Of a DNA stretch of 64,000 nucleotides, positions 7,641 through 24,687 are shown piece by piece. The stretch is from an uncultured Flavobacteriales bacterium (GTDB taxonomy: Bacteria > Bacteroidota > Bacteroidia > Flavobacteriales_D > Crocinitomicaceae): the NCBI GenBank assembly GCA_905478665.1, contig CAJQJL010000019.1, forward strand, positions 1 through 64,000, given 5' to 3'. The position numbers and the translations under genes were made by a program. The notes under the pieces were generated by a model, which ran no database searches, had not been told where the DNA came from, and saw only the letters and a program-made list of their open reading frames with translations. Positions within the stretch are counted from its first letter, which is position 1. Each line of letters opens with the position of its first letter.

Positions 7641-7645
7641 ATCAC

Positions 7646-11700: not shown

Positions 11701-12735
11701 ATGGTCACACTCAAAAAACAGCATTCGGACTGGAAACCACTCAAAAACAAGGTATTCAAAGATGCCAAACTTGCCGAAAAGATTCATCAAGAAGGATATG
11801 CCGTTTTGCCACTCCTATCGGATGAAATTGTTGAGCAACTAAAAGCCATTTACGCACGCGAGCACTCATTGAATGTTGAAAATGGAGGCATGTTTTATTC
11901 TGTTTATTCAACAGATAATGAATACCGCATGAGAGTTCATCAGGAAATTAAAGATGTACTGACACCAATACTGAATGAACATTTTCAAGATTACAAAAAC
12001 GTAATCAACAGCTTTGTAATTAAAGCATCTGGAAAAGAAAGTGAATTCTATGTACATCAGGACACAACGGCAGTTGACGAGTTTACTTATTCACCATTGA
12101 GTTTGTGGATCCCTCTTCAAGAAATTGACGCAACCAACGGTGCACTCACAGTCATAGAGAAAACCCATTGGTTCTTTTCACCCTATAGAGGCGTGTCTTT
12201 TGCTTTTCCCTTTTCAAAAATCGTAAATACAGTTCGCAAGTATTTAAAACCCGTCTATATGAAGTCGGGTGAAGTTCTTGTTTTTGATCCTCGCGTGATT
12301 CATAATTCTATGCAGAATAGTTCGGGCAACGACCGTATTGCCATTATTTGTGGTGTATCTAATAAGGACGCTGAGTTCATTACCTGTTACAAAGATCCCG
12401 CTGACGAAAAGAGCCCTATTGAACGGTACAAACACGAAGATGACTATCTACTCAAGTACCAAAATTTCTTTTACGATTGTCATATTCGACCGACCTCTGG
12501 AACAAAACTCGATGAGATTCCCGATATCTTCCCGGCGATGTTGAGCGAGGAATTTGAAGAATTATGCGCAATGAATAACATCACGCCTGTAAATATACTT
12601 GACGAAGAATCAAATATTCAATGTAACATGATTGCGGAACCTGACGGAATTAACAAACCCGAATTGGTGGAAAGTCATATTCCTGAACCTGTTCCACAAA
12701 AAAAAATGGGAATCTTATCTTGGTTTAAAAAGTGA
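11701..12735 (+). CDS. PhyH-family Fe(II)/2-oxoglutarate oxygenase A
   Basis: A 344-residue phytanoyl-CoA-dioxygenase-like protein. The iron triad is intact: H119-Q-D121 in FYVHQDTTAVDEF and the distal H201 in DPRVIHNS, with R212 at the position that normally holds the 2-oxoglutarate carboxylate. The N-terminus shares with its paralogues the pattern K-x-F-K-D-x-x-L, then G-Y-x-V-L-P-L-L. It has the longest C-terminal extension after the fold, about 80 residues, ending in the basic amphipathic tail KKMGILSWFKK. It is the first of two co-directional oxygenase genes (3-base gap to the next) that converge on the minus-strand cluster. Members of this fold hydroxylate, desaturate, epimerise or halogenate small molecules; the substrate here is unknown. 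Confidence 0.85.
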   Translation: MVTLKKQHSDWKPLKNKVFKDAKLAEKIHQEGYAVLPLLSDEIVEQLKAIYAREHSLNVENGGMFYSVYSTDNEYRMRVHQEIKDVLTPILNEHFQDYKNVINSFVIKASGKESEFYVHQDTTAVDEFTYSPLSLWIPLQEIDATNGALTVIEKTHWFFSPYRGVSFAFPFSKIVNTVRKYLKPVYMKSGEVLVFDPRVIHNSMQNSSGNDRIAIICGVSNKDAEFITCYKDPADEKSPIERYKHEDDYLLKYQNFFYDCHIRPTSGTKLDEIPDIFPAMLSEEFEELCAMNNITPVNILDEESNIQCNMIAEPDGINKPELVESHIPEPVPQKKMGILSWFKK

Positions 12736-12738
12736 TTC

Positions 12739-13623
12739 ATGAAAGCGTTGCTTAAAAATCAGGATCTTCAAACTCAGCTCAACGCAGATGGGTACATTTC
12801 TATGCCTTTTTTGAATGAACAAGAATTAGAGCAAGCGCGCAATTTTTACAAAGAAATTCATCCTGACGGGGAGGCGCCTGGGAAGATAGATGGCATCCAC
12901 ATGACTACCTGGTGTGAAGACTACGATTACAAAATGAAAGTAGCTCTTTTTTTAGACGAACTCTATGAGCGTGCATGCGAGGAGAATTTTAAAGACTTTC
13001 GACGCCTTAATAATGTATTCATTGTTAAATCACCAGGGGAAGGAACGACCTTCAAAGTACATCAAGATTGGAATGTTGTTGACGAAAAAGAAAACTTTGC
13101 GATCAATGTATGGGTTCCCTTGTATGACGTTGACGCTACCACTGGAGCCTTGTGGACAGTGAAGGGCAGTCATCAAATCAACCGACATGTACGTGGTTCT
13201 GCCTATTTATTCCCTGATTACAGCCCTTTTTACGATGAACTAGAACAGGTAGCGACATCGGTTAATTTAAAGGCTGGTCATGCTATCGTCTTTTACTTAA
13301 ATGTGATTCATGGTTCACCACCCAATCTTGGCGAGAAAGAACGCATTGCGACCTGTTTCTCTATTATTCCTGAAAAGGCACCACTATCGATATATTTCCA
13401 AAAGCAAGCAGGAGATGCTCTAGAACTACACGAACCTGCCGATGACTTTATGTATCAGTATAAAAGCTTACGCACCGATACTTTCGAGTTTGCGCCAACA
13501 AAAGAGCCTGTTGAGCTACTTCCTTCGTACGAAAACAAGCCTATTACGCGAGAAGAATTGGAATTTTGTTTGAAAAAAGAACAAAAATCAACTTGGCTAA
13601 CGCGTTTCCTTAAGAAAAACTAA
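12739..13623 (+). CDS. PhyH-family Fe(II)/2-oxoglutarate oxygenase B
   Basis: 294 residues. The triad is H108-Q-D110 (FKVHQDWNVVDEK) and H191 (NVIHGSPPN), with R202 as the 2-oxoglutarate anchor. The paralogue N-terminal signature is present (ALLKNQDLQTQLNADGY, then MPFLNEQEL). The conserved post-fold helix (ITREELEFCLKKE) leads straight into the tail STWLTRFLKKN, basic and amphipathic as in its relatives. The start ATG is three bases after the stop of oxygenase A, so translation is probably coupled. Its last four bases overlap the end of the convergent gene at 13620. The fold is clear; the substrate is unknown. Confidence 0.87.
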   Translation: MKALLKNQDLQTQLNADGYISMPFLNEQELEQARNFYKEIHPDGEAPGKIDGIHMTTWCEDYDYKMKVALFLDELYERACEENFKDFRRLNNVFIVKSPGEGTTFKVHQDWNVVDEKENFAINVWVPLYDVDATTGALWTVKGSHQINRHVRGSAYLFPDYSPFYDELEQVATSVNLKAGHAIVFYLNVIHGSPPNLGEKERIATCFSIIPEKAPLSIYFQKQAGDALELHEPADDFMYQYKSLRTDTFEFAPTKEPVELLPSYENKPITREELEFCLKKEQKSTWLTRFLKKN

Positions 13624-14492
13624 GACCACACATACAAAGTATCTTCTTCGTTTCTTCCTTTACTAAGGAATCCTCCAAACGTAACCCTGTTTTTATCGCC
13701 CGCAACAGATTCTACCGAGTGCCAAAGTTGACCGCCTGGAAAAATAATAAGGTCTCCAGTCTGCATGTCAATTTTCAGATTGCCAATTGGAGATTTTTTG
13801 TCATCAAGATTGATCGCTTCACCCGTGGTCAATAACACCGAATTTGTACGTGATTTAGCATTTTTTTTCGCGCGATCCCAATCAACATTGTAAAGGATCA
13901 ATCGCCCTCCTTCTGATGGCTCTTTCAACATGATGAAAAAACTCAACGAATCATAAATGTCGGTCATCGTCGATAAATATGCACAGTGTTCATCAAATAT
14001 TTCACGCAATTGATTCTCACAGTGTGCATACATCACAACGTCATTCGGTGGTAGAGAACGAAATGTTGTGGGTTGGTAATACCCATTCTCCTCACCCGGT
14101 GGTATTTTGATGTTTACATTAGCATTGACAGACTTCAATAAATCAAATAACCTCTGATGCACATCCAAACCATAAGTTGAAGGGAATTCATCGATGTAAT
14201 CTTTGGCGAGCTGAAAATACTTTTCGTCTACATTCTCATTCCTTATTTGATAAAAATTAGGTGGATAAATTACTGGAGTTTCTGGGTCTTTGTTATACCC
14301 CACTTTACCGTAAAAATTACCAACGAGTTTGTCGCATTCTTCCTTCGATAAAAACTGGCGATGGATGTAGCCGTCCAACCTTCTACTGAACAAATCATTT
14401 AGCAATTCAGACCCAACCTCGACAGTGTCAGCTGTGTCCAGAATATTGAACTTTGCTTTCTTTCTTTTAAATAAATTTCCTAAAATTCCCAT
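13620..14492 (-). CDS. Prolyl-4-hydroxylase-like 2OG-Fe(II) oxygenase with HxE motif
   Basis: Start chosen at ATG 14492 (about 290 residues), eight bases after the upstream stop; the upstream in-frame TTG at 14510 is less likely. With this start the protein opens with the amphipathic basic segment MGILGNLFKRKKAK, similar to the C-terminal tails of the PhyH paralogues. The double-stranded beta-helix core shows YAHCENQL (H157, E159), LKEPSEGGRLILYNVDWD, and GGQLWHSVESV (H258) followed by R269 in NRVTFGGF. The usual HxD reads HxE here, so a carboxylate ligand is retained. Its closest relative is the next gene upstream, which reads HxG. It is the last gene of the minus-strand oxygenase operon. 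Substrate unknown. Confidence 0.78.
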   Translation of the reverse strand: MGILGNLFKRKKAKFNILDTADTVEVGSELLNDLFSRRLDGYIHRQFLSKEECDKLVGNFYGKVGYNKDPETPVIYPPNFYQIRNENVDEKYFQLAKDYIDEFPSTYGLDVHQRLFDLLKSVNANVNIKIPPGEENGYYQPTTFRSLPPNDVVMYAHCENQLREIFDEHCAYLSTMTDIYDSLSFFIMLKEPSEGGRLILYNVDWDRAKKNAKSRTNSVLLTTGEAINLDDKKSPIGNLKIDMQTGDLIIFPGGQLWHSVESVAGDKNRVTFGGFLSKGRNEEDTLYVWS

Positions 14493-14500
14493 AATTGCAT

Positions 14501-15409
14501 TTACGACCAAAAGTAGAGTGTTTTGTCATCCTTAGATCGTGACATAAATCCTCCAATTGTAAACCGCGATTTTGATCCTTCAATAAACTCCACTTTATGC
14601 CAAATTTGGCCCCCTGCAAAAGTGATCATGTCTCCAGGTCCAGGTGCTAATTTTTTTCGAGTTACTTGCCGTTCATCTAACAAATCATACGTATTCCCCT
14701 GCATGTCTTCCAACACTGTATCTCCGTGAAGGCGTTTTTGAACATTATCCCACTCTATGTCGTAGAGCGTTAACTCTCCTCCGCTTTCAGGTGGCGAAAG
14801 CATGATGAAATAACTCATTTGGTTATGGATAACGGAAGTTTCCATTAAATGACCAAAAAAGGTAGGAAACTCTTTATGAAAAAGGTTTCCACAATGTGCT
14901 TTGAGCTCTCCTTTACCTGGTTTTAATTCTTTTATAGTTGCAGGATTGTAAATCCCTTCTCCATCCACACCTTTTGGAATTTCAATGGCTCTACCATCCC
15001 CTATTTTCGCTAACGTATCCTTAATTCGTCCAACAAAATCAACACCAAATCGCTCTGGAAATTCCTTCCAAAATCTTTCTGCTTCCTGATAATATTCCTT
15101 TAATAGTTCCCTTGAATTATGACTGTTTTGATCTAATTGAGCAAAGGCTTGTGGCAAAAAATAAAGCCAATCATTGATCTTTCTTCTTTCTTCAATAGGG
15201 GTTGCTAAGAAGGCCTTTGTAATTTTATCGACCTCTTCCTTTGAAAATACATTTCGCACAAGAAATCCATCAATTTCACGATTTTTGATTTTCGTGATAC
15301 CATCCTTGTAGTCATCAAGTTGTGAAGCATGTATTTCAACAAAATTGTAATCAGCGGAACGCGGTGCGACAGCTGGTTTTTTCTTAAATAATCTTTTCAA
15401 TAATGTCAT
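14501..15409 (-). CDS. Prolyl-4-hydroxylase-like 2OG oxygenase with HxG in place of HxD
   Basis: 302 residues, beginning with the basic amphipathic segment MTLLKRLFKKKPAV. The core parallels the gene downstream: LKAHCGNLFHKEF (H172, G174), LSPPESGGELTLYDIEWDN, GGQIWHKVEFI (H271) and R282 in SRFTIGGF, ending TLYFWS. If H172 is the proximal ligand, the carboxylate of the 2-His-1-carboxylate triad is replaced by glycine. That arrangement is known from Fe/2-oxoglutarate radical halogenases such as WelO5 (HxG) and SyrB2 (HxA), where chloride takes the open site. It could instead be an inactive homologue or find its ligand elsewhere. It lies between wzt (9-base gap) and the HxE paralogue. Confidence 0.78.
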   Translation of the reverse strand: MTLLKRLFKKKPAVAPRSADYNFVEIHASQLDDYKDGITKIKNREIDGFLVRNVFSKEEVDKITKAFLATPIEERRKINDWLYFLPQAFAQLDQNSHNSRELLKEYYQEAERFWKEFPERFGVDFVGRIKDTLAKIGDGRAIEIPKGVDGEGIYNPATIKELKPGKGELKAHCGNLFHKEFPTFFGHLMETSVIHNQMSYFIMLSPPESGGELTLYDIEWDNVQKRLHGDTVLEDMQGNTYDLLDERQVTRKKLAPGPGDMITFAGGQIWHKVEFIEGSKSRFTIGGFMSRSKDDKTLYFWS

Positions 15410-15418
15410 TTCTTCTTT

Positions 15419-16663
15419 TTATTTGGTAGAAATTTGTTGAACGTCCCACTTTAGTTTGGGTCGAATGATACTACTAATTTTATCATCTAATTTTGTCCTT
15501 TTTAATGTGTCTACTTTGAATTTGGCAATGTTTTCAAATTCTTTAATGACTTCGCCATTCTTACAGAGTATTAGGCCCAAAGTAAAAATACCTCGGTTCA
15601 ACAAATTGCTCGGAATTACACATTTTATTCTGTATTTCCCTTCGGACATTTGTTGGTTTTCCAGATCATAATTATCGTGCAATCCATACGTATCGAGTAA
15701 TACACGAACGCCATTCATATTGATCAAGTAATAAACAACTTCTAACCCGCCTTCTGGATACTTTTTGTCGCATTCGATATCGAGGGTCAATTCATCATTC
15801 ATTTGAATGCTCTTAGCATTGCTTTGATTATTGACTAATATTTCAAAATTATTCAGTCGGATGAGTTCGTTTTCAAAGCGGAGGAATTCAGTATTATATT
15901 TAATCGTATCGACTATGGGTAACTGTTCTCCAAAGGCTTTGTCAATTGGTGCATCTGATTGATCGTCCATGTTTTGCATATAAACTTCAACCACATCCAA
16001 TGGTGTCCCGATGGAGTGTATTTTTCCGCTATTTATAAGAATACATCGATCACAAAATTCCAAAATAGGCTCAAGAAAATGGCTCACCAGAATGATGGAT
16101 ACTCCTTCATCTTTTAGTGATCGAATTCGATTATAGCATTTCCTTCGGAAGTCAACATCTCCCACAGCAATGATCTCATCCAGTACCAATATATCGATTT
16201 TGGCATGAAAGGCTATTGAAAACGCCAAACGCAAATACATTCCGCTTGAGTAGTGTTTCACAGGCATGTACATGTACTCGTTCAGTCCACTGAACTCAAC
16301 AATTTCTTCATACATTTCCTCAATTTCCTGACGCTTAAACCCTAACAAAGATGCGCTCAGATACAAATTTTCTTTCCCCGATAAGTCTGGGTGGAATCCT
16401 GTACCGATTTCAATAATCGAAGTAAGTACTCCGTCATATATAACCTCTCCGCTTGTTGGAGCCGTAATCTGACTCAAGATCTTAAGCAGCGTACTCTTTC
16501 CTGCACCGTTACGACCAATCACACCTAAAATCTCACCTCTCTTTAACTCGAACGAGACATCCTTCAACGCCCAAAATTTGGAACCTCCTCGACCAGCCTT
16601 CACGTACTGTTTGGAAAGCTTATTTACGGACATTGCTATTTCAGCTGTTTTCAATTCAGGCAT
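15419..16663 (-). CDS. wzt: Wzt-type polysaccharide ABC exporter, ATP-binding subunit with C-terminal recognition domain
   Basis: ATG at 16663 (about 414 residues) lies one base after the methyltransferase stop and matches the family N-terminus; a longer upstream frame would overlap the methyltransferase by about 150 bases and lacks family similarity. Walker A is GRNGAGKST (residues 50-58), the signature region is YSSGM (138-142), Walker B is ILVLDEIIAVGD (158-169) and the H-loop is in VSHFLE. The region from about residue 265 to the end is a beta-sandwich resembling the Wzt C-terminal domain, which in O-antigen systems binds the modified non-reducing end of the glycan. With Wzm at 22303 it forms the exporter. 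The adjacent methyltransferase recalls systems in which a terminal cap is recognised before export; that link is inference. Confidence 0.88.
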   Translation of the reverse strand: MPELKTAEIAMSVNKLSKQYVKAGRGGSKFWALKDVSFELKRGEILGVIGRNGAGKSTLLKILSQITAPTSGEVIYDGVLTSIIEIGTGFHPDLSGKENLYLSASLLGFKRQEIEEMYEEIVEFSGLNEYMYMPVKHYSSGMYLRLAFSIAFHAKIDILVLDEIIAVGDVDFRRKCYNRIRSLKDEGVSIILVSHFLEPILEFCDRCILINSGKIHSIGTPLDVVEVYMQNMDDQSDAPIDKAFGEQLPIVDTIKYNTEFLRFENELIRLNNFEILVNNQSNAKSIQMNDELTLDIECDKKYPEGGLEVVYYLINMNGVRVLLDTYGLHDNYDLENQQMSEGKYRIKCVIPSNLLNRGIFTLGLILCKNGEVIKEFENIAKFKVDTLKRTKLDDKISSIIRPKLKWDVQQISTK

Positions 16664-16664
16664 G

Positions 16665-17639
16665 TTAGAGTTCTTCTTGCTTTCTGTTATGCACTTGCAT
16701 ATAGTACAAATTCTGGAGGAAATATCTACTGTTTCCGTATTCCAATGCGTTCCACGGCTTGTAACATTTGATTTCAAAGAAATCAACTGGGAATACATAT
16801 TCCTGTAGATTTTCAATTTTGTTTATTCCCGTCAACTCCTGAAAATCATTGGAAATTGTTAAGTTTTCAAAATCCTCCAATGGGAGATCTATCGTCTTTA
16901 CACTCGAAAGAATATATCCCTTTTTACGGATGAAATGCAACACCTCATAGAAATCTGCAACGTTGTAATGATATGCCTTGTTGATATTTTGAATTTCCCT
17001 TTCAATGTCCTTTTCAAGTGATGGAATTGCCGCTTCTTTCCGAAACAAATCCTTGATGTAAAGCGTTCCGCCTGGTTTCAACATTCCCCAAGCCGAGTTG
17101 ATTACTTCCTCGTGATCTTTTGCATGTCCAAAAGACTCTAAGAAATAGACTGCATCAAAACTATCCGACTCATAATAGTTATCCAAATGATGGTAGTCGC
17201 CATACGTTACATTCACTTTTCCTTCCAACCCTTCTTCGGCAATGTACTTTTTAGACTTCTCTACCTGATCCTTTGAAATTGTAATTGCTTCCACCGTAAC
17301 ATCTGCATTCTTTGCAAAGTATCTTGCAGGTCCACAAACTCCACATCCAGCATCAAGTACTCGTTGTCCCTTCTCAAATCCTATACTTTCAATTTGATAG
17401 TCCAATAACTTGGAAACATCCGTTGTTCGAAATGCCTGAATTACTTCTCCGTATACCTTCAGGAAATTATTCGTCTGTTCATCGTAGAAATCACCGACAT
17501 CCTTCGCATCGTGTTTTGCCAGCGTGCTAGTTCTCTCCAAAGACTTGTTTCGCTTTCGCGAAATCACCAATGCAAACAATACCACATGAGCCAGTAAAAG
17601 CCAAATAATTACAATATAGAAGACAACAGAATCGCTCAT
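16665..17639 (-). CDS. Membrane-anchored SAM-dependent methyltransferase
   Basis: ATG at 17639 gives 324 residues; a GTG at 17648, overlapping the upstream stop, is the alternative. Residues about 6-26 form one transmembrane helix followed by SRKRNK, so the catalytic domain should face the cytoplasm at the membrane. The class I methyltransferase fold shows motif I VLDAGCGVCGPARYF (94-108), an acidic motif near EAITIS, and AVYFLESFGHAKDH followed by LKPGGTLYIKD. These resemble the UbiE/sterol/tocopherol group of small-molecule O- or C-methyltransferases. It sits between a PhyH gene and wzt with almost no gaps. Likely role: methylation of the exported molecule or its lipid carrier; the substrate is unknown. 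Confidence 0.82.
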   Translation of the reverse strand: MSDSVVFYIVIIWLLLAHVVLFALVISRKRNKSLERTSTLAKHDAKDVGDFYDEQTNNFLKVYGEVIQAFRTTDVSKLLDYQIESIGFEKGQRVLDAGCGVCGPARYFAKNADVTVEAITISKDQVEKSKKYIAEEGLEGKVNVTYGDYHHLDNYYESDSFDAVYFLESFGHAKDHEEVINSAWGMLKPGGTLYIKDLFRKEAAIPSLEKDIEREIQNINKAYHYNVADFYEVLHFIRKKGYILSSVKTIDLPLEDFENLTISNDFQELTGINKIENLQEYVFPVDFFEIKCYKPWNALEYGNSRYFLQNLYYMQVHNRKQEEL

Positions 17640-17644
17640 TGATT

Positions 17645-18508
17645 TCACTTATTTTTTCGTTTCAAGAAACTAAAGATGGCACTTTCTTTTTTCTGTGGTG
17701 GCTTTCTTCCCAAATAGATCTTCTCAAATTCCTCTTTGTTCAACATCTTGTTCTCGAAATCAAACTCCTTGTTCTTCTCCAAAACCTTTGGTCCATCTTC
17801 TGGATCGTAATCAAAGAAAAAATTGGGCTTCGAGTTGTATTCTTCTATGACGCTCCCTTTCTGGTAATAAAATTTCATCTGTGCCCCTTGAGGAATTGTC
17901 CCGAAAACGATCGCCAACCTTAACACCTCAGTTTGATTCATTGGGGAGGAATGCCACAACGCATGATCGTACAGCAGAGCTTCACCAGCTTTCATGTTTA
18001 AAGAAATCATGTACTGATCCACTTCTTCACTGATTGGATACAACACTGGAGGCAAGTTGGGTCCACGATAGGTCTCCTGCTTCCGATGGCTTCTTTCCAG
18101 TATTCGCATTGCCCCATTATGCTCATTCACATCTACGAGCGGAATCCAAAGATTATACGATCTAGCTTCTTTTTCATCAACAATGTTCCAATCTTGGTGC
18201 AACGGTAAAATGCCTTTTTCACCAGGTGCTTTCGAAATAAATGCTCCTCCCAAAAGATGAATATTTTCAAATAGAGGCTCCGCACGCTTTTGGATAGTTT
18301 TTATAATCTCATCACTCACCTGCTTTCTCCATGCCTTATCCTTCGCATGGGTAGTTGCATAAAACCCTTCTGGAAACTCAGCGTGAAGTTCTTCAAACGA
18401 TTTCTTCAGTTCTTGAATTTCATCTGCATTCAGTAAAGGAAAGACAACTTTGCCTTCTGTTTCCAACTCAGCCGTGAGGACCGTATCCTTAAATCGTACT
18501 ATGTTCAT
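17645..18508 (-). CDS. PhyH-family Fe(II)/2-oxoglutarate oxygenase C
   Basis: 287 residues. The triad is H104-Q-D106 (LPLHQDWNIVDEK) and H186 (DHALWHSSP), with R197 in LRLAIVFG. The N-terminal paralogue signature is RFKDTVLTAELETEGK, then VFPLL. After the fold come the conserved helix LNKEEFEKIYLG and the basic tail AIFSFLKRKNK. Its start overlaps the upstream oxygenase stop by four bases (ATGA), and its stop abuts the methyltransferase start. It appears catalytically competent as a hydroxylase. Substrate unknown. Confidence 0.87.
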   Translation of the reverse strand: MNIVRFKDTVLTAELETEGKVVFPLLNADEIQELKKSFEELHAEFPEGFYATTHAKDKAWRKQVSDEIIKTIQKRAEPLFENIHLLGGAFISKAPGEKGILPLHQDWNIVDEKEARSYNLWIPLVDVNEHNGAMRILERSHRKQETYRGPNLPPVLYPISEEVDQYMISLNMKAGEALLYDHALWHSSPMNQTEVLRLAIVFGTIPQGAQMKFYYQKGSVIEEYNSKPNFFFDYDPEDGPKVLEKNKEFDFENKMLNKEEFEKIYLGRKPPQKKESAIFSFLKRKNK

Positions 18509-19377
18509 CTTCTTCCAAAAATTCGAGCGATAAACCCAGGTTTTTCTTTCTCAGCACCTACTAATTCGGTGAGTTCCGCTTCGCTCATTTTTGGCGCCGA
18601 ATATTCCATCATCCCCAAGCTTTCTCCCATTCTCGGTCGTTCATAAATGGCCTCATGAAAATTTTCAAATCGCAGTAGGAAGTCGTCTTTTTGAGCAAAT
18701 AATTCCACTTGATTTGGAGATTCTTTGTTCCAATAATGAAATCTCAAGGGTGCCTCCTTGCTGATCAGTCCACATGTTATCGCTGGGCGAAGGGCATTGC
18801 TTAAATTAGGTTTTGAATAGTGGATTACTGCTTGATTCAGCACAACTACGTCGCCAATGGTTGCATCAATTGCTGTCAAATTAGGTCGAATACGCTCTTG
18901 AAATCCTTCGAAATAAAAAGGAAGAGTCGGTGCGCGAAGTGCTTTGTTCCAATTTTGGCTTCCCTTTAAAACTTCAATTGTTCCGTTTGATTCAGTAGTC
19001 TCGGTAAGTGGAATCCAAACGTTTGCCGCGAAATAGTTGGATTCGTCGACAATGGTCCAATCCTGATGCATGGGCATTTCACTATTTTCACCTACTCCCT
19101 TCACTAGAAATGCTGCCCCGATTAACCGATAATTCACAAATTGATCCTTCACCTTTTCTTCAATGAGCGCGGCTATTTTATTACTCATTTCTGACTTCAA
19201 CTCAAAATCATCCAAATAGCTCGATGAAAAAAATGCCTGAACATCATCAGGAATATATGCTTGGAATAGATCATTGAGACCCTGAATTTCCTCCGTATCA
19301 AACAATCTCAGCTTGGCAAAACCATCACGTTCAAATTGCGCTTGGATTTCCTCGTTTTTAAAAATTGCTTCCTTCAT
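18505..19377 (-). CDS. PhyH-family Fe(II)/2-oxoglutarate oxygenase D
   Basis: 290 residues. The triad is H104-Q-D106 (MPMHQDWTIVDES) and H186 (AVIHYSKPN), with R197 in LRPAITCG. The N-terminal signature is IFKNEEIQAQFERDGF. The end consists of the helix MSEAELTELVG, a short linker and the tail PGFIARIFGRR. It is six bases downstream of the next paralogue and overlaps oxygenase C by four bases, so all appear to be translated from one message. All three iron ligands are present. The divergence from its neighbours suggests a distinct substrate position rather than a recent duplicate. Confidence 0.87.
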   Translation of the reverse strand: MKEAIFKNEEIQAQFERDGFAKLRLFDTEEIQGLNDLFQAYIPDDVQAFFSSSYLDDFELKSEMSNKIAALIEEKVKDQFVNYRLIGAAFLVKGVGENSEMPMHQDWTIVDESNYFAANVWIPLTETTESNGTIEVLKGSQNWNKALRAPTLPFYFEGFQERIRPNLTAIDATIGDVVVLNQAVIHYSKPNLSNALRPAITCGLISKEAPLRFHYWNKESPNQVELFAQKDDFLLRFENFHEAIYERPRMGESLGMMEYSAPKMSEAELTELVGAEKEKPGFIARIFGRR

Positions 19378-19383
19378 TTCGTT

Positions 19384-20289
19384 CTATTTTGCAAAAAGAC
19401 GCTTTAGCCAAGATGGTTTTGGAGTTTCCTGCTTGATAGGTAATGAAACCTTGTACTCTTTCTCAATCATCTCCCTAGTCAATTTAGGGAATTTATAGTG
19501 GAAATGTCCCAAACTCTTGCCGAGCGTTGGACGATTAAAAATATTGTGTCCGAACTGTTCGAACTGCTCAAGAAAATCATCCTCCTGCTCAAAAATTTCA
19601 ATTTCATCTTTTCCACTTTCCTTATCCCAATAGCAGATTTTGATTCGAGCATCTTGATGTGCAACGAAAGTATTGATCACTGGACGCTCCTCCTCTGATA
19701 AATTCGGTGGTGAATAGTGAATGACGCTTTGATCAAAAATAATTGCTTCACCAGCCTTCAACTTACATGATTGCATGACCGTTTTCAATTCAGGAACCAG
19801 ACCGTCATAAATATCGGGGATCGATGATCCTCTGAATGTTGAATAAAAGCGGTGACTTCTGGGCAAAATTTCAATTGCGCCATTCTTATCGTTCAAATCT
19901 ACCAATGGACACCAAATGTTGATTCCAGTGTAGGTTCGTTCATCAACGAGAGTCATATCTTGATGCATAATCAGCTCGCTATCCTTTCCAGGTGCTTTCA
20001 CAATGAAACTTGAAAATAGAATTTTATAATTCTCGAATAATTCATCAATGCGTTTCAAACAAAGTTCACGAATGGAGTGATTTACACCTTCGCGGTGCTC
20101 TACATCATTGGCGAATGTTGTCGTAAAAAACCCTTTGACTCCATCTGGATAGTACTTCTGATAAACCTTCAAAATCTCATCGACTTGTTCTACCTCGAGA
20201 AAAGGGACAACCACAAAGCCATCTTTCTGAAATTTCGCGGTTAGATCTGCATCTTTAAAAATCGATATTTTATGAGAGAAGTCTAACAT
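19384..20289 (-). CDS. PhyH-family Fe(II)/2-oxoglutarate oxygenase E
   Basis: 301 residues. The triad is H109-Q-D111 (LIMHQDMTLVDER) and H191 (SVIHYSPPN), with R202 in ERPVINTF. The residue after HQD is Met, where most siblings have Trp, which probably shapes the pocket. The N-terminal signature is IFKDADLTAKFQKDGF. The C-terminal helix LTREMIEKEYKV is followed by the tail PKPSWLKRLFAK. The start codon overlaps the preceding stop by one base. It is one of five consecutive PhyH genes between wzm and the methyltransferase gene. Confidence 0.87.
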   Translation of the reverse strand: MLDFSHKISIFKDADLTAKFQKDGFVVVPFLEVEQVDEILKVYQKYYPDGVKGFFTTTFANDVEHREGVNHSIRELCLKRIDELFENYKILFSSFIVKAPGKDSELIMHQDMTLVDERTYTGINIWCPLVDLNDKNGAIEILPRSHRFYSTFRGSSIPDIYDGLVPELKTVMQSCKLKAGEAIIFDQSVIHYSPPNLSEEERPVINTFVAHQDARIKICYWDKESGKDEIEIFEQEDDFLEQFEQFGHNIFNRPTLGKSLGHFHYKFPKLTREMIEKEYKVSLPIKQETPKPSWLKRLFAK

Positions 20290-21215
20290 TATGCGTTCGT
20301 TGATTTCCTCTTCAATCTATCCCAAAAGGATTTTTTTCGAACCTCATCAAACCGTGGTCCTCTCAACTGTTTCTCAAATTGTTCAATTGTCAATGAAAAT
20401 GGCACATACTTAAATGACTTCACCCGTTTTACCGTTTCCTCTGGCTTTTTCCAAGGATTGAATTTCATATAAAACCCTTTGTCCACTTCCAAAACCTCCA
20501 CTTTACTGCGGTCTTTAGCCAAATCCATATGATAATGAATGGATGGTTCCTCCTTTGGAATCAGAATTAATTGGATCGTCAATCGAAGCGAGTCAGTTTG
20601 ATTTGGAGAAGAATAATGCACTAGACTATCGTCAAGAATGACAGCATCTCCCGCCTTAGTAACCAAGGGAACCATGTGCTTATCAATAATCTCCTTTTTA
20701 ATGTCCTCTAATTCCGATTTAATCATTGGCCCACGAACTTCACCAAAACGCTTATGACTACCAGGTACGACTTCGAGCGTCCCGTTTTCTTTGTTGCTAT
20801 CCACTAGTGGACACCAAATGGAGACGGTAGCACATTTGTGCTCATCAGCGAATGCCCAATTCTGATGAAGTGGAACCTCTCCTCCATCTGTTTTCTTTCG
20901 AATGAAATTTGCAATAATTGGTTCATAATCCGCTAAATACTCAGCATATCTATCCTTGAAAGTCGTTGCTATTTTGTCAAAAACTTTTTCCTTATAATCG
21001 ATATTTTTATCAATGAAGGTGAAATCATAAGTTACTTGAAGCGATGCATTGTACTTCTCATCTTCTGGACCAATATGTCCACCACTCTCGTCCAATGTAT
21101 CGAAATAATACCCTTTCAATTCCTCTACCTCTTCCTCTGTTAGAAAAGGAATTCGAACATATCCATCTTTTTGAAATTGTTCCTCTAAAGCTGGGTCAAT
21201 AAGTGTTCTTCTCAT
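20289..21215 (-). CDS. PhyH-family oxygenase F with HxN in place of HxD
   Basis: 308 residues. The fold and context are the same as in its siblings, but the proximal motif reads H117-Q-N119 (VPLHQNWAFADEH; codon AAT), so the carboxylate iron ligand is an amide. The distal H200 (SLVHYSSPN) and R211 (LRLTIQL) are kept, as is the paralogue N-terminus (LIDPALEEQFQKDGYV). The conserved helix LTIEQFEKQLRG and the basic tail SFWDRLKRKSTNA follow. The loop around residues 42-75 is longer than in the others. Possible meanings: a reduced-activity or non-hydroxylating enzyme, a partner subunit of another paralogue, or altered metal chemistry. The frame is intact, so it is not a pseudogene. Confidence 0.84.
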   Translation of the reverse strand: MRRTLIDPALEEQFQKDGYVRIPFLTEEEVEELKGYYFDTLDESGGHIGPEDEKYNASLQVTYDFTFIDKNIDYKEKVFDKIATTFKDRYAEYLADYEPIIANFIRKKTDGGEVPLHQNWAFADEHKCATVSIWCPLVDSNKENGTLEVVPGSHKRFGEVRGPMIKSELEDIKKEIIDKHMVPLVTKAGDAVILDDSLVHYSSPNQTDSLRLTIQLILIPKEEPSIHYHMDLAKDRSKVEVLEVDKGFYMKFNPWKKPEETVKRVKSFKYVPFSLTIEQFEKQLRGPRFDEVRKKSFWDRLKRKSTNA

Positions 21216-21219
21216 AGCT

Positions 21220-22266
21220 TCATTGTTTTCTTCCCTTCAAACGCCACTGAATTTCGCGCAAGATATTTCCAGGTGTGTACTTTTGAAAGAAGGTTCGTTT
21301 GTCCTCTGTATTATCGGTATCAGCATTTTGCTTTTTCGTCTCTTTTTCTGGACTGTAATTGAATAGTTTTGCCAATTTATCCATCAAAGGTTGATTCACT
21401 TTTACGCCATCCAACGTCAGTACTAATTCTTCCATTTCACTTTTCGACAGGTCAGGAACAAGGCGTTCTATACGATCTACTTTTTTCAAATCTTGAGGTA
21501 TCTTCCCTTTGTCATAAATTTCAGAGAGGCGCGCATTGTTGTACCACGTATAAAACTCTTTTTCCACCTCGTATACCTCCAACTGCGCAGGCTCACTATT
21601 CGGGACGTGATAATAATGACGCAACTGAGCCTCTTCCTGCGTCACACCAATACCAACTGCGATACGCGATTGATCTGAGAGATTCGGTGGTGAAGCGTGG
21701 ATTAATTTATTGTTGAAGATCAAGGTCTCCCCTGCTTTCATTTCCACAATTTCGACGTAAGGGAAAAGCGTAAAAATATGATCTGCAAGTGGTGATTTCG
21801 ATTGTGGAGATGGAGAAGAACGGTGGTGATTGAATAAGTTTTGACTCCCCTTAATTATACCTAGTGCTCCATTGTTCTCTGTCACATCTACAAGTGGCGT
21901 CCAAACAGTCACAGAACAAAATTCATTTTCATCCACAAAGCTCCAATCCTGATGTGGCGGCACAATGTTTTGCAATCCAGGTTCCTTAATCACGTAGCTT
22001 GCCGTAAACACTTGACCTCGATCAAAAATGTCTGTCGTTTTCGGAACAAGTACACTTTTTATTTTCTCGCCTACTGCCGTTACCAACTCTTGATTTTGGT
22101 TATCTAAGCTAATGTGAAAACCATCGTCTATTTTGTTGTCGAAATTTTGATCCCGATAGAAACTGAGTAAGGTTTCAACCTCTTCTTTATTCAATAGTGG
22201 AAGTTTCACAAAACCTTGTGATTCAAATTGCTGCTGTAACTCTGGATTTTTGAATAGCGCTCTCAT
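21220..22266 (-). CDS. PhyH-family Fe(II)/2-oxoglutarate oxygenase G
   Basis: 348 residues, the longest of the family. The triad is H105-Q-D107 (VPPHQDWSFVDEN) and H190 (KLIHASPPN), with R201 in SRIAVGIG. The N-terminal signature ALFKNPELQQQFESQGF closely parallels oxygenases B and D. After the helix LSKSEMEELVLTL there is a polar linker (residues about 300-322, rich in K, N, D, T) and then the tail PGNILREIQWRLKGRKQ. It follows wzm by 36 bases and starts the run of five PhyH genes. It looks catalytically intact; substrate unknown. Confidence 0.87.
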   Translation of the reverse strand: MRALFKNPELQQQFESQGFVKLPLLNKEEVETLLSFYRDQNFDNKIDDGFHISLDNQNQELVTAVGEKIKSVLVPKTTDIFDRGQVFTASYVIKEPGLQNIVPPHQDWSFVDENEFCSVTVWTPLVDVTENNGALGIIKGSQNLFNHHRSSPSPQSKSPLADHIFTLFPYVEIVEMKAGETLIFNNKLIHASPPNLSDQSRIAVGIGVTQEEAQLRHYYHVPNSEPAQLEVYEVEKEFYTWYNNARLSEIYDKGKIPQDLKKVDRIERLVPDLSKSEMEELVLTLDGVKVNQPLMDKLAKLFNYSPEKETKKQNADTDNTEDKRTFFQKYTPGNILREIQWRLKGRKQ

Positions 22267-22302
22267 AGTGCTGTGTATTACGATTTTGCAGGCGACTCAA
22301 AT

Positions 22303-23118
22303 TTACACATAATCGGCGATGTTCCTTTCTGTTTTCTTGAAAAGATAAACGCCCGCAATAAAGAAAACGAACACACCAACGAAGGAGATACAATAGAACC
22401 ATTCGAATGGAGTTCCGAAAGTCGCTGAACGGAACATTTCAATCGCTGTAGCAACAGGATTGAGGTAATAAATCCATTCCGTGTATGGCGCTGGGATGAT
22501 CGTGGACGGATAAAACACTGGCGTTAACCAGATCCCATAATTGACCATGTAGGGAATCAAATGTTGGAAATCTCTGCGCTTTACCGTGAAAGCATTCAAC
22601 CAGAGCGAAATCGTCAAGCCGGTAAATGTCACCAGCAAAATAATGAGCGGAATAAAAAGGATAGAAACATGTATTTCCGTCTTCCAAAGAAATGCCAATC
22701 CCACGAAAATCAGAAAGGCGATCCCAAACTCAAACAGTCCGACCAACGCTTTATACAAAGGCAAAATTATTTTGGGGAAATAGACCTTTTTAATCAAGTC
22801 TTGATGCGAGATCAACGCATTACCCGATTGGCGAACTGTACTCGAGAAATAATACCAAATTATCATTCCACTAAATGCAAAAACAGGATACGCGATATCG
22901 CCTGTTTCTAGGTGAATCAATCCATCAAAGAATACAGAAAAGATCACAAGCGCAATCAAGGGTTGAATCACAGCCCAAAGAATTCCTAGTGCTGTCTGTG
23001 CGTACTTCGCTTTTAGATCGCGTTTGATAAGGGTAAGAATCAACGAGCGGTATTGATATACACTTTTCATGTATTCAACAATTCCTATTGGCTGATTATT
23101 TATTACTTTCCTCGGCAT
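22303..23118 (-). CDS. wzm: Wzm/ABC-2-type polysaccharide exporter permease
   Basis: 271 residues with about six transmembrane helices. The amphipathic N-terminal region with LTLIKRDLKAKYAQTALGILWAVIQPL is the ABC-2 (Wzm, TagG, KpsM, RfbA) signature. The C-terminal IYYLNPVATAIEMFRSATFG is also typical. It is the first gene of a ten-gene minus-strand run ending at 13620 and would pair with Wzt at 15419-16663, seven genes away; exporter genes of this type usually sit side by side. A TATCTTTA-like -7 element lies at 23174-23181 upstream. The exported substrate is inferred to be a lipid-linked glycan. Confidence 0.88.
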   Translation of the reverse strand: MPRKVINNQPIGIVEYMKSVYQYRSLILTLIKRDLKAKYAQTALGILWAVIQPLIALVIFSVFFDGLIHLETGDIAYPVFAFSGMIIWYYFSSTVRQSGNALISHQDLIKKVYFPKIILPLYKALVGLFEFGIAFLIFVGLAFLWKTEIHVSILFIPLIILLVTFTGLTISLWLNAFTVKRRDFQHLIPYMVNYGIWLTPVFYPSTIIPAPYTEWIYYLNPVATAIEMFRSATFGTPFEWFYCISFVGVFVFFIAGVYLFKKTERNIADYV

Positions 23119-23245: not shown

Positions 23246-24124
23246 CTGAGAAAAATTGCGCATATAATTAATCCTTTCCATGCAAAACCGTCCTCGGATT
23301 TGTACACAGCGCAACCCATAACTTTTGCGTCTATGATTGCCGCAAAAGAAGAAGCAGAAGGAAAGGTAGAAGTTGAACTGCTCACTGCACAATTTCCTGA
23401 AGACCGATCAATGGTTCCTACCGAATTTAAAGCCACCGAAGATCTTTCACGTTCCGTGTTGGATTTGGGAGACTTTAAGTTGCAGATGAAACTCCCAATA
23501 TTGGCGGATATTCTTGAGCGCATGTACACCGAAAGTGATGCCGAATATTTGATCTACACCAACGTCGATATTGGACTTTATCCCGAATTTTACGCCAAGG
23601 TTAATCGCATCATCGAAAGTGGCTTGGACGCATTTATCATCAACCGTCGTCGTCTCTCGGCTGATTACACATCAGTAGATGATCTAGCAGACATCTACAC
23701 AGACAAGGGCAAAAAGCACCCAGGGTTTGATTGCTTTGTTTTTCATCGTGATTTGTTTCCGCAGCTGGTTTTGAAAGAAGTTTGTATCGGCGTACCATTT
23801 ATCGGGATCACCCTCTCTCAGAATCTTTTTGCCCTCTCGAAAAATTTCGAATTATTTGAAAATGAAATCCTAACTTTTCATATTGGAATGGAAATCATAA
23901 AAGGAAGGGCACCGCGTGAATATTTCAAGTACAATCAAGCGCAATTTTGGAGTGCCATGAATTCACCTCTCCGTGAGCATCTTTCTTCCAAGAAACTTCC
24001 GTACAGTGAACTCCTGTTGCCTTTTCGCATGATCAAATGGGGACTTCAGCCAAGCATTCCAATTCGACTCGTGCTTCGCTTGGAACTTGAACGTTTGACC
24101 GGTTATTTCCGCAAAAACAAGTAG
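23246..24124 (+). CDS. Glycosyltransferase-like protein (GT-A type suspected), non-ATG start
   Basis: The reading frame has no ATG near its N-terminus. Coding character extends upstream of the TTG at 23300 to a stop at 23231: the stretch LRKIAHIINPFHAKPSSDLYTAQPITF looks genuine (two overlapping parts of a conserved-looking N-terminus). CTG at 23246 would give MRKIAHIINP, while ATA 23234 or ATT 23240 are alternatives. The body of about 290 residues has LIYTNVDIGLYPEFY, where NVD-I recalls a DxD-like nucleotide-sugar site, and a basic C-terminus (RLELERLTGYFRKNK). It converges on the GNAT gene with a 22-base overlap. A glycosyltransferase role is suggested by that motif and the setting, not proven. 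Confidence 0.65.
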   Translation: MRKIAHIINPFHAKPSSDLYTAQPITFASMIAAKEEAEGKVEVELLTAQFPEDRSMVPTEFKATEDLSRSVLDLGDFKLQMKLPILADILERMYTESDAEYLIYTNVDIGLYPEFYAKVNRIIESGLDAFIINRRRLSADYTSVDDLADIYTDKGKKHPGFDCFVFHRDLFPQLVLKEVCIGVPFIGITLSQNLFALSKNFELFENEILTFHIGMEIIKGRAPREYFKYNQAQFWSAMNSPLREHLSSKKLPYSELLLPFRMIKWGLQPSIPIRLVLRLELERLTGYFRKNK

Positions 24125-24687
24125 GAGCTCTCCAGTTGAGAAAAAGTGTTTTTCTTTTCTTCAGAATCAAACTTCGCCAGAACGTTTTTTAATAGCATTT
24201 TCTTCTTTTGATAATCCTCAGGTGAAACTGACAATAGGTAATGGTCCGAATATTCCTTTTGGATCAGATATCCCAAATCTTGGTTGAAATTCAATGCATT
24301 TTCATTGTCCTTTCGAACACGCGCTGTGAGTTGAGTAAATTGACATTCGTTAAAAAACACATCCATCAAACAATAGACAGCCAACATCGGGACGTAAGAA
24401 TTGCGGTAATCTTCATCACCAATTAAGATTCCCGCTTCACCTGATCGCTCTTCCCAATTGATGTTTCGGACGTTGATTAGTCCAATTTGAGCTTCGCGGT
24501 AAACAATCAATAAATAGATCATCGAATCATCCAGTTTTGCGAACCATGTTTTCTGATCTGTACTAGAAATCTCCTCTTGAAAAAGCATTCGTTCGCGCAC
24601 AAAATCATCATTGCGCCAGCTGCGAATGAGCTCCAGATCATCTTCTGTTAATGAATGTAACTCTACGCCGTACTTACGAAGAATCAT
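24103..24687 (-). CDS. GNAT-family N-acyltransferase
   Basis: 194 residues. Motifs typical of GNAT acyltransferases are visible: LTEDDLELIRSWRND at residues 17-31, the beta-4 strand IGLINVRNINWEERSGEAGI, and RVRKDNENALNFNQDLGYL, which resembles the motif B region of PseH/RimJ-like enzymes. It shares a one-base start/stop overlap with the glycosyltransferase gene upstream, in an operon beginning with an acyl carrier protein and a ketoacyl synthase. With the divergent WecE-like aminotransferase nearby, the natural guess is acylation of a 4-amino sugar, using either acetyl-CoA (as WecD) or an acyl-ACP made by the neighbouring KAS III; this is inference. Confidence 0.8.
   Translation of the reverse strand: MILRKYGVELHSLTEDDLELIRSWRNDDFVRERMLFQEEISSTDQKTWFAKLDDSMIYLLIVYREAQIGLINVRNINWEERSGEAGILIGDEDYRNSYVPMLAVYCLMDVFFNECQFTQLTARVRKDNENALNFNQDLGYLIQKEYSDHYLLSVSPEDYQKKKMLLKNVLAKFDSEEKKNTFSQLESSYLFLRK

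Follow-up and report, generated by a model that had tools for sequence, protein, structure and literature searches.

A cluster of Fe/2OG oxygenases with a candidate WelO5-type halogenase beside a Wzm/Wzt exporter in an uncultured Flavobacteriales bacterium

The locus described here is on balance likely to encode an oxidative, probably halogenating, tailoring line at the inner membrane, which would act on a lipid-linked surface glycan and have its own Wzm/Wzt exporter. It was found in an uncultured Flavobacteriales bacterium (GCA_905478665.1, contig CAJQJL010000019.1, positions 1-64,000; this whole stretch of 64,000 nucleotides is the window). The region 11701-23118 contains twelve ORFs encoding seven PhyH proteins, two WelO5-family proteins, one methyltransferase (MT), Wzm and Wzt. 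The minus-strand run has the order wzm, phy7, phy6, phy5, phy4, phy3, MT, wzt, wel2, wel1, and phy1 and phy2 lie beside it on the plus strand. The coordinates and strands of the twelve genes, and the placement of wzm as the first and wzt as the eighth gene of the run, agree with the initial annotation. With the chosen starts, the spacing between genes ranges from a 4-base overlap to a 36-base gap. The assembly (3.9 Mb, 89% complete) yielded seven PhyH and two WelO5-family matches in genome profile searches, all in this locus, and thus the clustering is not a matter of chance.

Oxygenases, methyltransferase and exporter

All seven PhyH genes exceed the PF05721 cut-off of 22 bits (57-84.5 bits), as the initial annotation had proposed. 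The variable module contains phy1 (11701..12735, plus strand, 57 bits) and phy2 (12739..13623, plus strand, 69.9 bits). The core module, on the minus strand, contains phy3 (17645..18508, 65.1 bits), phy4 (18505..19377, 59.8 bits), phy5 (19384..20289, 58.6 bits), phy6 (20289..21215, 84.5 bits) and phy7 (21220..22266, 72.8 bits). The Pfam scan took in ten of the twelve genes, all but phy4 and phy5, and named all ten; the PhyH search of the genome recovered all seven PhyH genes, these two included. The iron site HxD...H, in the form HQD, is present in six of the seven (phy1-phy5 and phy7). In phy6 it is replaced by HxN (HQNWAFADE), with the histidine and asparagine identical in all 11 sequences that were aligned, and this protein may be inactive or have another role. 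As a candidate SpoChoClust 2OG oxygenase phy1 was rejected, scoring 24.2 bits against a cut-off of 150 (TIGR04324) and 21.1 against 200 (TIGR04436); phy6, the other PhyH gene scanned, had no match to either model.

The two remaining oxygenases had been described as P4H-like. This assignment fails, as they score 20.8 and 21.1 bits with 2OG-FeII_Oxy_3, below its cut-off of 27, and their best match is PF22814 (cut-off 27). The gene wel1 (13620..14492, minus strand, start ATG 14492 with TTG 14510 as a possible alternative) scores 174.5 bits and matches WelO5 in PDB with E 2e-17. Its metal motif is HxE (AHCEN), and the halogenase-type H-x-G...H site is absent. The gene wel2 (14501..15409, minus strand) scores 238.1 bits and matches WelO5 with E 2e-32. 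Its metal site consists of HxG (AHCGN) and a second histidine (WH), without a carboxylate, and is thus of the halogenase type; HCGN aligns with HVGN of WelO5. The fold check covered wel2 only: its AlphaFold model (pLDDT 83.5) matches WelO5 with Z 31.9, at 2.2 A over 260 residues with 30% identity, and the ten top structure entries are all of the WelO5 type (Z 31.9-29.7), the next entry having Z 16.9.

Thus wel2 is probably a halogenase, although the HxG site alone is no proof. A somewhat unlikely alternative is that the WelO5-type proteins are hydroxylases, or non-catalytic binding proteins lacking the carboxylate, and that the locus performs hydroxylation only. Indeed, loss of the metal carboxylate can equally mean loss of activity, and HxE members other than wel1 exist in the family. 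However, HxG is found in 9 of 9 WelO5-type genes of the genus mates and in 31 of 35 distinct genes aligned over the whole site, a set that came in part from a scan favouring HCG. The second histidine is retained, and a serine equivalent to S189 of WelO5 is present in most aligned genes. In A1, Ser199, at the place of S189 (own numbering), and the arginine at the 2OG-binding place are both invariant. Decayed enzymes rarely retain the full set of these residues. A QM/MM study is cited as crediting S189 with blocking OH rebound (PMC13244439). The initial proposal of hydroxylation at several positions is therefore incomplete, because two of the nine oxygenases belong to the WelO5 family and one of them has a halogenase-type site.

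The gene mt (16665..17648, minus strand, start GTG 17648 or ATG 17639) encodes a class I methyltransferase (CMAS, 62.7 bits; Methyltransf_11, 57 bits) with full-length orthologues of 76-79% identity in six genus mates. The N-terminus is hydrophobic in the window and in the genus orthologues, and the protein is probably membrane-anchored. Some orthologues carry MLKNLFKKK or a similar peptide in place of the hydrophobic helix, and no clear anchor was seen in those of L024 and L033.

Similar short peptides occur in the oxygenases. The N-terminal tails of wel1 and wel2 are MGILGNLFKRKK and MTLLKRLFKKK, respectively. At the C-terminus, phy1 has the basic tail ...GILSWFKK, and the tails of phy2-phy6 are ...STWLTRFLKKN, ...IFSFLKRKNK, ...GFIARIFGRR, ...SWLKRLFAK and ...SFWDRLKRKS; the C-terminal peptide of phy7 is ...YTPGNILREIQWRLKG. 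With a regular expression composed after inspection of the tails, basic tails were found in 40 of 50 PhyH proteins of the window and genus, compared with 2 of 19 control PhyH proteins, and in only 53 of 100 from distant clusters. The tails would bind the membrane.

The permease gene wzm (22303..23118, minus strand) has 66.1 bits with ABC2_membrane. The gene wzt (15419..16663, minus strand, ATG start) encodes an ABC ATPase (ABC_tran) with a C-terminal domain of the carbohydrate-binding type, and matches Wzm-Wzt of A. aeolicus with E 1e-61. The Wzt_C match of this domain is under the Pfam cut-off (16.8 against 30.4 bits). In structure comparison of its model, the best solved matches are carbohydrate-binding domains of Wzt (Z 12.1-10.7, the top one being 6o14 with Z 12.1), and the predicted fold thus matches the type that binds glycan caps. 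By analogy with such exporters, the exported product would be a lipid-linked glycan. A second Wzm/Wzt pair lies on contig C30 of the same genome, beside DegT-like and GDP-mannose-dehydratase-like ORFs (named by eye), and therefore the pair of the window looks dedicated.

The syntenic genes continue past 23118, which the initial annotation had missed. A conserved 274-aa ORF (23300..24124, plus strand) has no Pfam match, is glycosyltransferase-like by eye only, and occupies the corresponding position in relatives, G328, G455 and G251. It is followed on the minus strand by genes for a syntenic GNAT acyltransferase (24103..24687; PF13302, 48.8 bits), a syntenic GT2 transferase (24687..25601; Glycos_transf_2, 79.9 bits) and a syntenic FabH-like KAS III (25603..26613; ACP_syn_III; PRK09352, 257.8 bits, above the cut-off of 249). 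The GT2 protein resembles ArnC-type undecaprenyl-phosphate sugar transferases (E 1.6e-35 with the ArnC model, under the model cut-off). A WecE-type dTDP-4-amino-4,6-dideoxygalactose transaminase gene (26933..28063, plus strand; PRK11706, 503.5 bits, cut-off 375) is a neighbour in some relatives too.

Conservation and variation of the locus in relatives

Orthologues of Wzm and PhyH in near-identical order were found in Fluviicola relatives and in two other families of Bacteroidia, and parts of the locus in two more. Six genomes, from two families, share the order wzm-phy6-(X+phy7)-phy5-phy4; phy3 follows in five of them and MT in four. Position clades join the window with other families for phy3 (UFBoot/aLRT 100/97), phy4 (99/97), phy5 (99/96), phy6 (99/98) and phy7 (100/100), that is, with support of 99-100/96-100. 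phy2 forms a clade with a gene of G328 (100/100). The orthology groups phy3-phy7 keep their places across families, the order check that had been suggested, and this supports the proposal that divergence of the paralogues reflects different roles.

In the sample of the class, 11 genomes exceed the PF22814 cut-off; at least three PhyH domains are nearby in 10 and wzt in 9 of these. A single 718-aa ORF in L047 (10819-12975) contains PhyH, ABC ATPase and Wzt_C domains, each over its cut-off. A similar-looking 693-aa candidate PhyH-Wzt fusion was found by inspection, outside the Pfam scan, in its genus mate L051. WelO5-type genes are optional in such loci: G007 lacks them although it has the PhyH core, and in G201, G247, G431 and G455 of the class sample multi-PhyH clusters adjoin wzm or wzt with no WelO5-type gene. 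PhyH is absent from 5 and wzt from 13 of the 29 scanned loci, in the stretches examined, and a WelO5-type HxG gene in L044 has no PhyH or exporter gene in the 20.8 kb examined. Occurrence of the PhyH set apart from an exporter had been named as evidence against the proposed line, and here the outcome is mixed, as multi-PhyH clusters exist both with and without an exporter gene. L050, L053, L056, L057, L092 and L094 have none in the stretches examined, some of which end at contig ends; a wzt lies some 14 kb from the L092 cluster on its G320 contig.

Among the genus mates, Wzm, one core PhyH protein and MT are conserved, and Wzt, most of all in its C-domain, varies together with the neighbouring oxygenase cassette. 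Between cassette types A and B, identity is 78-92% for Wzm, 86-90% for MT, 58-66% for the ATPase part of Wzt, and only 28-36% for its C-domain; the difference between the types extends beyond the C-domain to the whole of Wzt. Orthologues of phy1 are 54-55% identical in five type A relatives, and the WelO5-type genes differ strongly within type A (36-90%). The variable module of two relatives contains a sulfotransferase. The split into constant and variable modules rests on the relatives, because Wzm of the window (49-51% identical to its orthologues in six relatives) is as divergent as the rest of the exporter. Such covariation would be predicted if Wzt reads a mark written by the variable oxygenases, and recombination or phylogeny could be the source of part of it.

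Possible substrates and mechanism

Synteny, the PhyH-Wzt fusion and the fold of the Wzt C-domain strongly support the link between the oxygenases and the exporter. Of the initially proposed tailoring line, the exporter link and the different roles of the paralogues are supported, and the account of its chemistry is incomplete. In the favoured mechanism, the constant module (wzm, phy7-phy3, MT) would introduce Fe/2OG oxidations and a methylation into a conserved portion of the substrate. Terminal marks would come from the variable module (phy1, phy2 and the WelO5-type enzymes), and C-H halogenation by wel2 would probably be among them. Short basic amphipathic tails, at the C-terminus in PhyH and at the N-terminus in WelO5-like proteins, would hold most oxygenases at the cytoplasmic face, and MT would be held there by a hydrophobic helix or a comparable tail. 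The C-domain of Wzt would read the terminal mark and license export.

The modified moiety would presumably be the glycan rather than its lipid. It is unlikely that the target of the oxygenases is an acyl or lipid moiety and not the sugar carbons, either an N-acyl chain added by KAS III and GNAT or the lipid carrier, and that Wzm/Wzt exports the resulting glycolipid. In Fluviicola relatives, G328, G455 and G251, synteny with the core includes KAS III and GNAT, the founding members of PhyH hydroxylate acyl-CoA, the tails would place the enzymes at the membrane, and aliphatic chains offer many C-H sites. However, among the distant loci compared, no KAS III was found in the stretches examined of L024, L033, L042 and L079, glycosyltransferase or UbiA-type genes occur instead of it in some distant loci, and the predicted glycan-binding fold of the Wzt C-domain points to a sugar.

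Export of a secreted small molecule, an oligosaccharide or alkaloid-like compound in the manner of everninomicin or the hapalindoles, is quite improbable. Comparison of the PhyH profile with PDB gave MysH, SnoK and EvdO2 (E 2e-10 for the latter) among the closest solved structures, and the substrate of WelO5 is a free alkaloid (PMC8407142). However, Wzm and Wzt form an ABC pair of O-antigen type with a predicted cap-binding fold, and the neighbours that can be named are sugar or acyl-transfer genes. Finally, surface-glycan loci are hotspots collecting unrelated genes and some multi-PhyH stretches have no exporter gene as far as examined, but mere co-location of an oxygenase island and an exporter with separate substrates at a variable chromosomal site is hardly credible given the compact interleaved gene run, the order kept across families, the PhyH-Wzt fusion and the covariation of Wzt with the cassette.

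As the oxygenases adjoin the exporter in an arrangement common to distant relatives, the locus suggests that in some bacteria surface glycans are oxidised, and perhaps also chlorinated, ahead of export. A bolder and tentative reading, which we consider possible, is that this family of Bacteroidota loci uses an ordered series of tethered PhyH enzymes and WelO5-type halogenases to write an oxidised, halogenated cap, with the Wzt domain co-evolving as its reader; these would be the first halogenated bacterial surface glycans and a writer-reader code for export. If true, oxidation and C-H halogenation would be added to the chemistry of bacterial surface glycans, with many new candidates for carrier-independent halogenases and a natural test of the writing and reading of export caps. 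Both the HxG/HxE pair, encoded in a single operon, and the PhyH protein with its conserved HxN site provide natural experiments on the choice between halogenation and hydroxylation.

Comparison with known systems

No description of such an oxygenase/halogenase-exporter system was found in the open-access literature. The proteins of SpoChoClust_2/3 (TIGR04324, TIGR04436) are also 2OG oxygenases of carbohydrate clusters, but phy1 is far below their cut-offs. The orthosomycin oxygenases EvdO1, EvdO2 and HygX are PhyH-like Fe/2OG enzymes with oligosaccharide substrates; they belong to an antibiotic pathway of Actinobacteria that is not known to include Wzm/Wzt, and by score EvdO2 is no closer to the PhyH proteins of the window than several other PhyH enzymes. 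The lipopolysaccharide hydroxylases KdoO and LpxO are likewise Fe/2OG enzymes, with lipid-linked glycans as substrates, and they work at the inner membrane. To our knowledge, these are single enzymes of other subfamilies and do not form an exporter-coupled series.

Wzm-Wzt of A. aeolicus and WbdD/Wzt of E. coli O9a share with the locus Wzm, Wzt, a C-domain of the cap-binding fold and a methyltransferase in the operon. The caps given for ABC-dependent O-antigens in PMC9445017 are methyl, (methyl)phosphate or Kdo, and the O9a cap enzyme WbdD is treated in PMC3482155. In contrast to these systems, the window locus has seven PhyH and two WelO5-family enzymes built in, and one genus has fused PhyH with Wzt. 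The halogenases WelO5, AmbO5 and Wi-WelO15 of the hapalindole pathway, which are carrier-independent Fe/2OG enzymes, resemble wel2 in family, fold, HxG and the positions of Ser189 and Arg. Descriptions of WelO5-type halogenases come from cyanobacterial alkaloid pathways (PMC8407142), whereas the genes seen here are from Bacteroidota and often lie in exporter loci, next to PhyH sets, with a basic N-terminal tail in the window and genus and with an HxE sister enzyme in the operon of wel2.

Gene content and the WelO5-type oxygenases

The locus at 11701-23118 is one compact run of twelve genes, as the initial annotation proposed. Every ORF was found in the window; neighbouring genes overlap by up to 4 bases or are separated by up to 36. 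Pfam and genome searches also confirm the seven PhyH genes (phy1-phy7), an ABC-2 permease (Wzm), a Wzt-type ATPase and a class I methyltransferase (MT). The remaining two genes, wel1 and wel2, had been described as P4H-like. This identity should be rejected: the P4H score is under the cut-off, whereas the profile of the WelO5 family (PF22814) fits far better, with 174.5 and 238.1 bits at a cut-off of 27. By this profile, both are members of the WelO5 family of carrier-independent Fe/2OG halogenases. In the 3.9-Mb assembly, no PhyH gene beyond these seven and no WelO5-type gene beyond these two was found. As all of them sit in this locus, chance clustering can be dismissed. Beside the locus, at 1038-10822, there are two exceptionally long ORFs (2200 and 1058 aa) with no Pfam match at E 0.001.

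In wel2 (14501-15409), the motif AHCGN is aligned to HVGN of WelO5, with glycine in place of the iron-binding carboxylate. According to PMC8407142, glycine at the position of the hydroxylases' iron-binding carboxylate is the arrangement that lets halide bind. The corresponding motif of wel1 (13620-14492) is AHCEN, and thus the carboxylate is present. The alignment of these two genes with eight relatives has three invariant positions: the second histidine, a serine at the place of WelO5 S189, and an arginine at the place of the 2OG-binding arginine. The correspondence to S189 was obtained by counting along the WelO5 numbering in the alignment of wel2 with WelO5. QM/MM work, as cited in PMC13244439, credits S189 with prevention of OH rebound. 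WelO5 structures score Z 31.9-29.7 against the model of wel2 (pLDDT 83.5), and the best other fold scores Z 16.9.

The whole metal site could be aligned in 36 of 42 rows, the other six being gene pieces; two rows represent one gene. Among the resulting 35 distinct genes, 31 have HxG (HGH), four have HxE (HEH) and none has Asp, but the genome-contig pattern scan behind most of them contained HCG, and thus HxG members are favoured in this count. The HMM samples (199 relatives and the class sample) are free of this bias. In locus L055 (4196-8965), wzm and wzt occur together with three tandem WelO5-type genes with the metal motif HNG, and no PhyH gene was found in the 19-kb locus. In genome G006 (L008/L012 and L022:9124-10071), a WelO5-type gene is spread over two reading frames that overlap, and a stop interrupts phy6, which indicates decay or assembly error.

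Conserved order of the core genes

PF22814 is present in eight of the 199 relatives searched, including the genome of the window (G000). All eight belong to the same genus, in which Fluviicola MAGs are among the named members. The order wzm-phy7-phy6-phy5-phy4-phy3-mt-wzt is identical in G019, G028, G032 and G006, the last with the interrupted phy6. G022 keeps this order except for phy6, which it lacks; in G007 the order is divided between two contigs, and there is no WelO5-type gene. The order wzm-phy6-(X+phy7)-phy5-phy4 recurs in two other families (G201, G247, G346; G251, G287, G455). It is followed by phy3 in five of these six genomes and by MT in four; phy3 was not seen in G287, nor MT in G287 and G346. 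In G251 and G455, phy5 and phy4 are fused and there is an extra phy3-like gene. Incomplete stretches from two more families (G239, G328) contain parts of the order.

The phylogeny agrees with the gene order. In the maximum likelihood tree of 70 sequences, each position from phy3 to phy7 forms a clade joining the window to the other families (UFBoot/aLRT 100/97 for phy3, 99/97 for phy4, 99/96 for phy5, 99/98 for phy6, 100/100 for phy7). Thus the paralogue orthology groups keep their order, a point that the initial annotation had proposed to check. All cluster PhyH proteins are separate from eight control PhyH proteins (99/95; the control side has long branches). The HQD motif is retained in six of the seven window PhyH proteins. 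The exception is phy6, which has HQN; an alignment of 11 phy6 sequences drawn from three families has this H and N without exception. The phy6 group (window 20289-21215 and orthologues), with HxN for HxD, also has the highest identity of the core PhyH proteins to other families in the loci compared (52-62%). The PhyH core is rare in the phylum sample, as among its 395 genomes only G000 has a match to the phy6 alignment at 1e-50.

The function of individual PhyH enzymes is not indicated by the PDB search, whose matches are scattered over PHYHD1, MysH, PhyH, SnoK, EvdO2, SyrB2 and others. Membership of phy1 in SpoChoClust is ruled out by scores below the curated cut-offs.

A block of KAS III, ArnC-like GT2 and GNAT genes and a 274-aa ORF is syntenic with the core in Fluviicola relatives, G328, G455 and G251. 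In the distant loci L024, L042 and L033, genes of the UbiA family resembling polyprenyl-phosphoribose synthases are found near the methyltransferase, one in L033 being fused to a glycosyltransferase. Radical SAM genes also recur in these loci.

Exporter genes and the variable cassette

An alignment search for the WelO5 family in GTDB genomes yielded 29 loci, with at least one PhyH in 24, at least three PhyH domains in 18 and wzt in 16. PhyH is absent from L031, L044, L052, L054 and L055, three of which are contigs of one genome. The clear miss is L044, where neither PhyH nor exporter was found in 20.8 kb. Of the 395 genomes in the class-wide HMM sample, 11 (G000 included) are over the PF22814 cut-off. 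This number includes two doubtful hits, G320 (83 bits, with an unresolved metal motif) and G515 (HQD-like by regular expression). Nearby, at least three PhyH domains occur in ten of the 11 and wzt in nine. The locus and class-sample counts are interdependent, as the two sets overlap (e.g. G415 is L047, G346 is L045, G350 is L033, G389 is L051) and several of the genomes are congeneric. The exceptions are G515 (43.5 bits), with neither PhyH nor wzt, and G346, with no wzt on a 7.2-kb contig. G202, G278 and G281 are below the cut-off and were excluded from the class count; neither PhyH nor wzt was found in the neighbourhood of G281. Neighbouring genes outside the Pfam scans were called with HMMs made from the window and its relatives. 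The converse association is looser: among the matches listed in the PF05721 class sample, where about seven candidates at most were scored per genome, multi-PhyH clusters beside wzm or wzt occur without a WelO5 match in G201, G247, G431 and G455. PhyH and Wzt can also share a polypeptide. In L047, a single 718-aa ORF contains PhyH, ABC ATPase and Wzt_C domains, each over the cut-off, and in L051, from a genus mate, a 693-aa ORF appears to have the same make-up.

The core is well conserved among the genus mates. With the window excluded, identities among six genomes are 77-92% for Wzm, 86-91% for MT and 77-92% for phy5; the matrices with the window cover seven genomes for these proteins and nine for Wzt. 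The Wzt proteins of eight genus mates are of two types, tracking the neighbouring oxygenase cassette. In type A (G019, G013, G022, G012, G007), the cassette consists of phy1/phy2 and two, one or no WelO5 genes. Type B (G028, G006, G032) has a different set of PhyH, double-PhyH and WelO5 genes. Between the types, the Wzt C-domains are 28-36% identical and the ATPase parts 58-66%, the respective values being 45-72% and 79-89% within A and 40-55% and 69-72% within B. For instance, G022 (A) and G032 (B) have 92% identical Wzm and 30% identical Wzt C-domains. The WelO5-type genes are 30-37% identical between A and B, and within type A they are also strongly divergent (36-90%). The window stands apart: its cassette (phy1, phy2, wel1, wel2) is its own, and both its Wzm (49-51%) and its Wzt are divergent. 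A sulfotransferase gene (PF03567, by Pfam scan on L007) directly follows a WelO5-type gene in L007 (829-1455) and L019 (2248-2871), with 69% mutual identity, and sits in the cassette varying with Wzt.

Such covariation of Wzt and cassette is the pattern expected of a writer-reader pair. As the genomes are few and recombination is possible, we propose this coupling as a hypothesis. The window Wzt is closest to the Wzm-Wzt of A. aeolicus. The top matches to the model of its C-domain (pLDDT 80) are Wzt carbohydrate-binding domains (Z 12.1-10.7; next 8.7), which, according to PMC9445017, recognise a chemical cap at the growing glycan end. A second Wzm/Wzt pair occurs in the same genome, on contig C30 (L120:8489-10647), with Wzm 33% identical and Wzt_C over the cut-off. 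It adjoins ORFs resembling, by eye, DegT, GDP-mannose dehydratase and MBOAT genes. Since the genome has this second pair beside sugar-nucleotide-like ORFs, the first pair is apparently dedicated to the oxygenase locus.

Terminal tails and the proposed pathway

The window PhyH proteins have short basic C-terminal stretches, most with an aromatic residue. A similar stretch is located at the N-terminus of wel1 and wel2, and residues 1-16 of the wel2 model have very low confidence. By a rule framed after the window tails had been seen, the tail is present in five of seven PhyH proteins of the window, 35 of 43 of the genus, 53 of 100 of distant clusters and two of 19 controls (PhyH ORFs from 20 fetched stretches), the enrichment over controls being p 1.6e-7 for window and genus together and p 7e-4 for distant clusters. 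A scan of the fetched loci, the window excluded, found a second C-terminal peptide, YTPxNIxxEIKxRLxG, in 22 ORFs representing 20 genes (two seen twice), all PhyH and always 3-6 residues from the end. Within one locus, PhyH paralogues that are otherwise divergent have this peptide in common (L087, L088, L082, L089 and others). At the N-terminus of the MT orthologues, some families have a hydrophobic helix and others a start similar to MLKNLFKKK or VLKQLKDFF; in L024 and L033 neither form is clear. This alternation of helix and tail-like start suggests, at the sequence level, that the basic tails may replace a membrane anchor.

On balance, the most likely reading is a tailoring and export pathway. 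The analysis shows its gene families, metal sites, gene order, fusion, fold and covariation, from which we infer the substrate, halogenation, tethering and cap reading by Wzt. A lipid-linked glycan would be assembled at the inner membrane, and its conserved part would be oxidised and methylated by the tethered PhyH enzymes and the methyltransferase. The cassette enzymes, among them the two WelO5-family proteins (wel2 as a probable halogenase, wel1 as a probable hydroxylase), would add lineage-variable marks. Finally, the Wzt C-domain would recognise the finished end, and the Wzm/Wzt pair would export the glycan.

A full-text search of the open-access literature found no account of glycan-exporter loci that contain PhyH or WelO5-type genes, and none of halogenated bacterial surface glycans. 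Every part of the system is of a known kind. As far as could be seen, it is their recurring combination within ABC-dependent glycan tailoring that is new.
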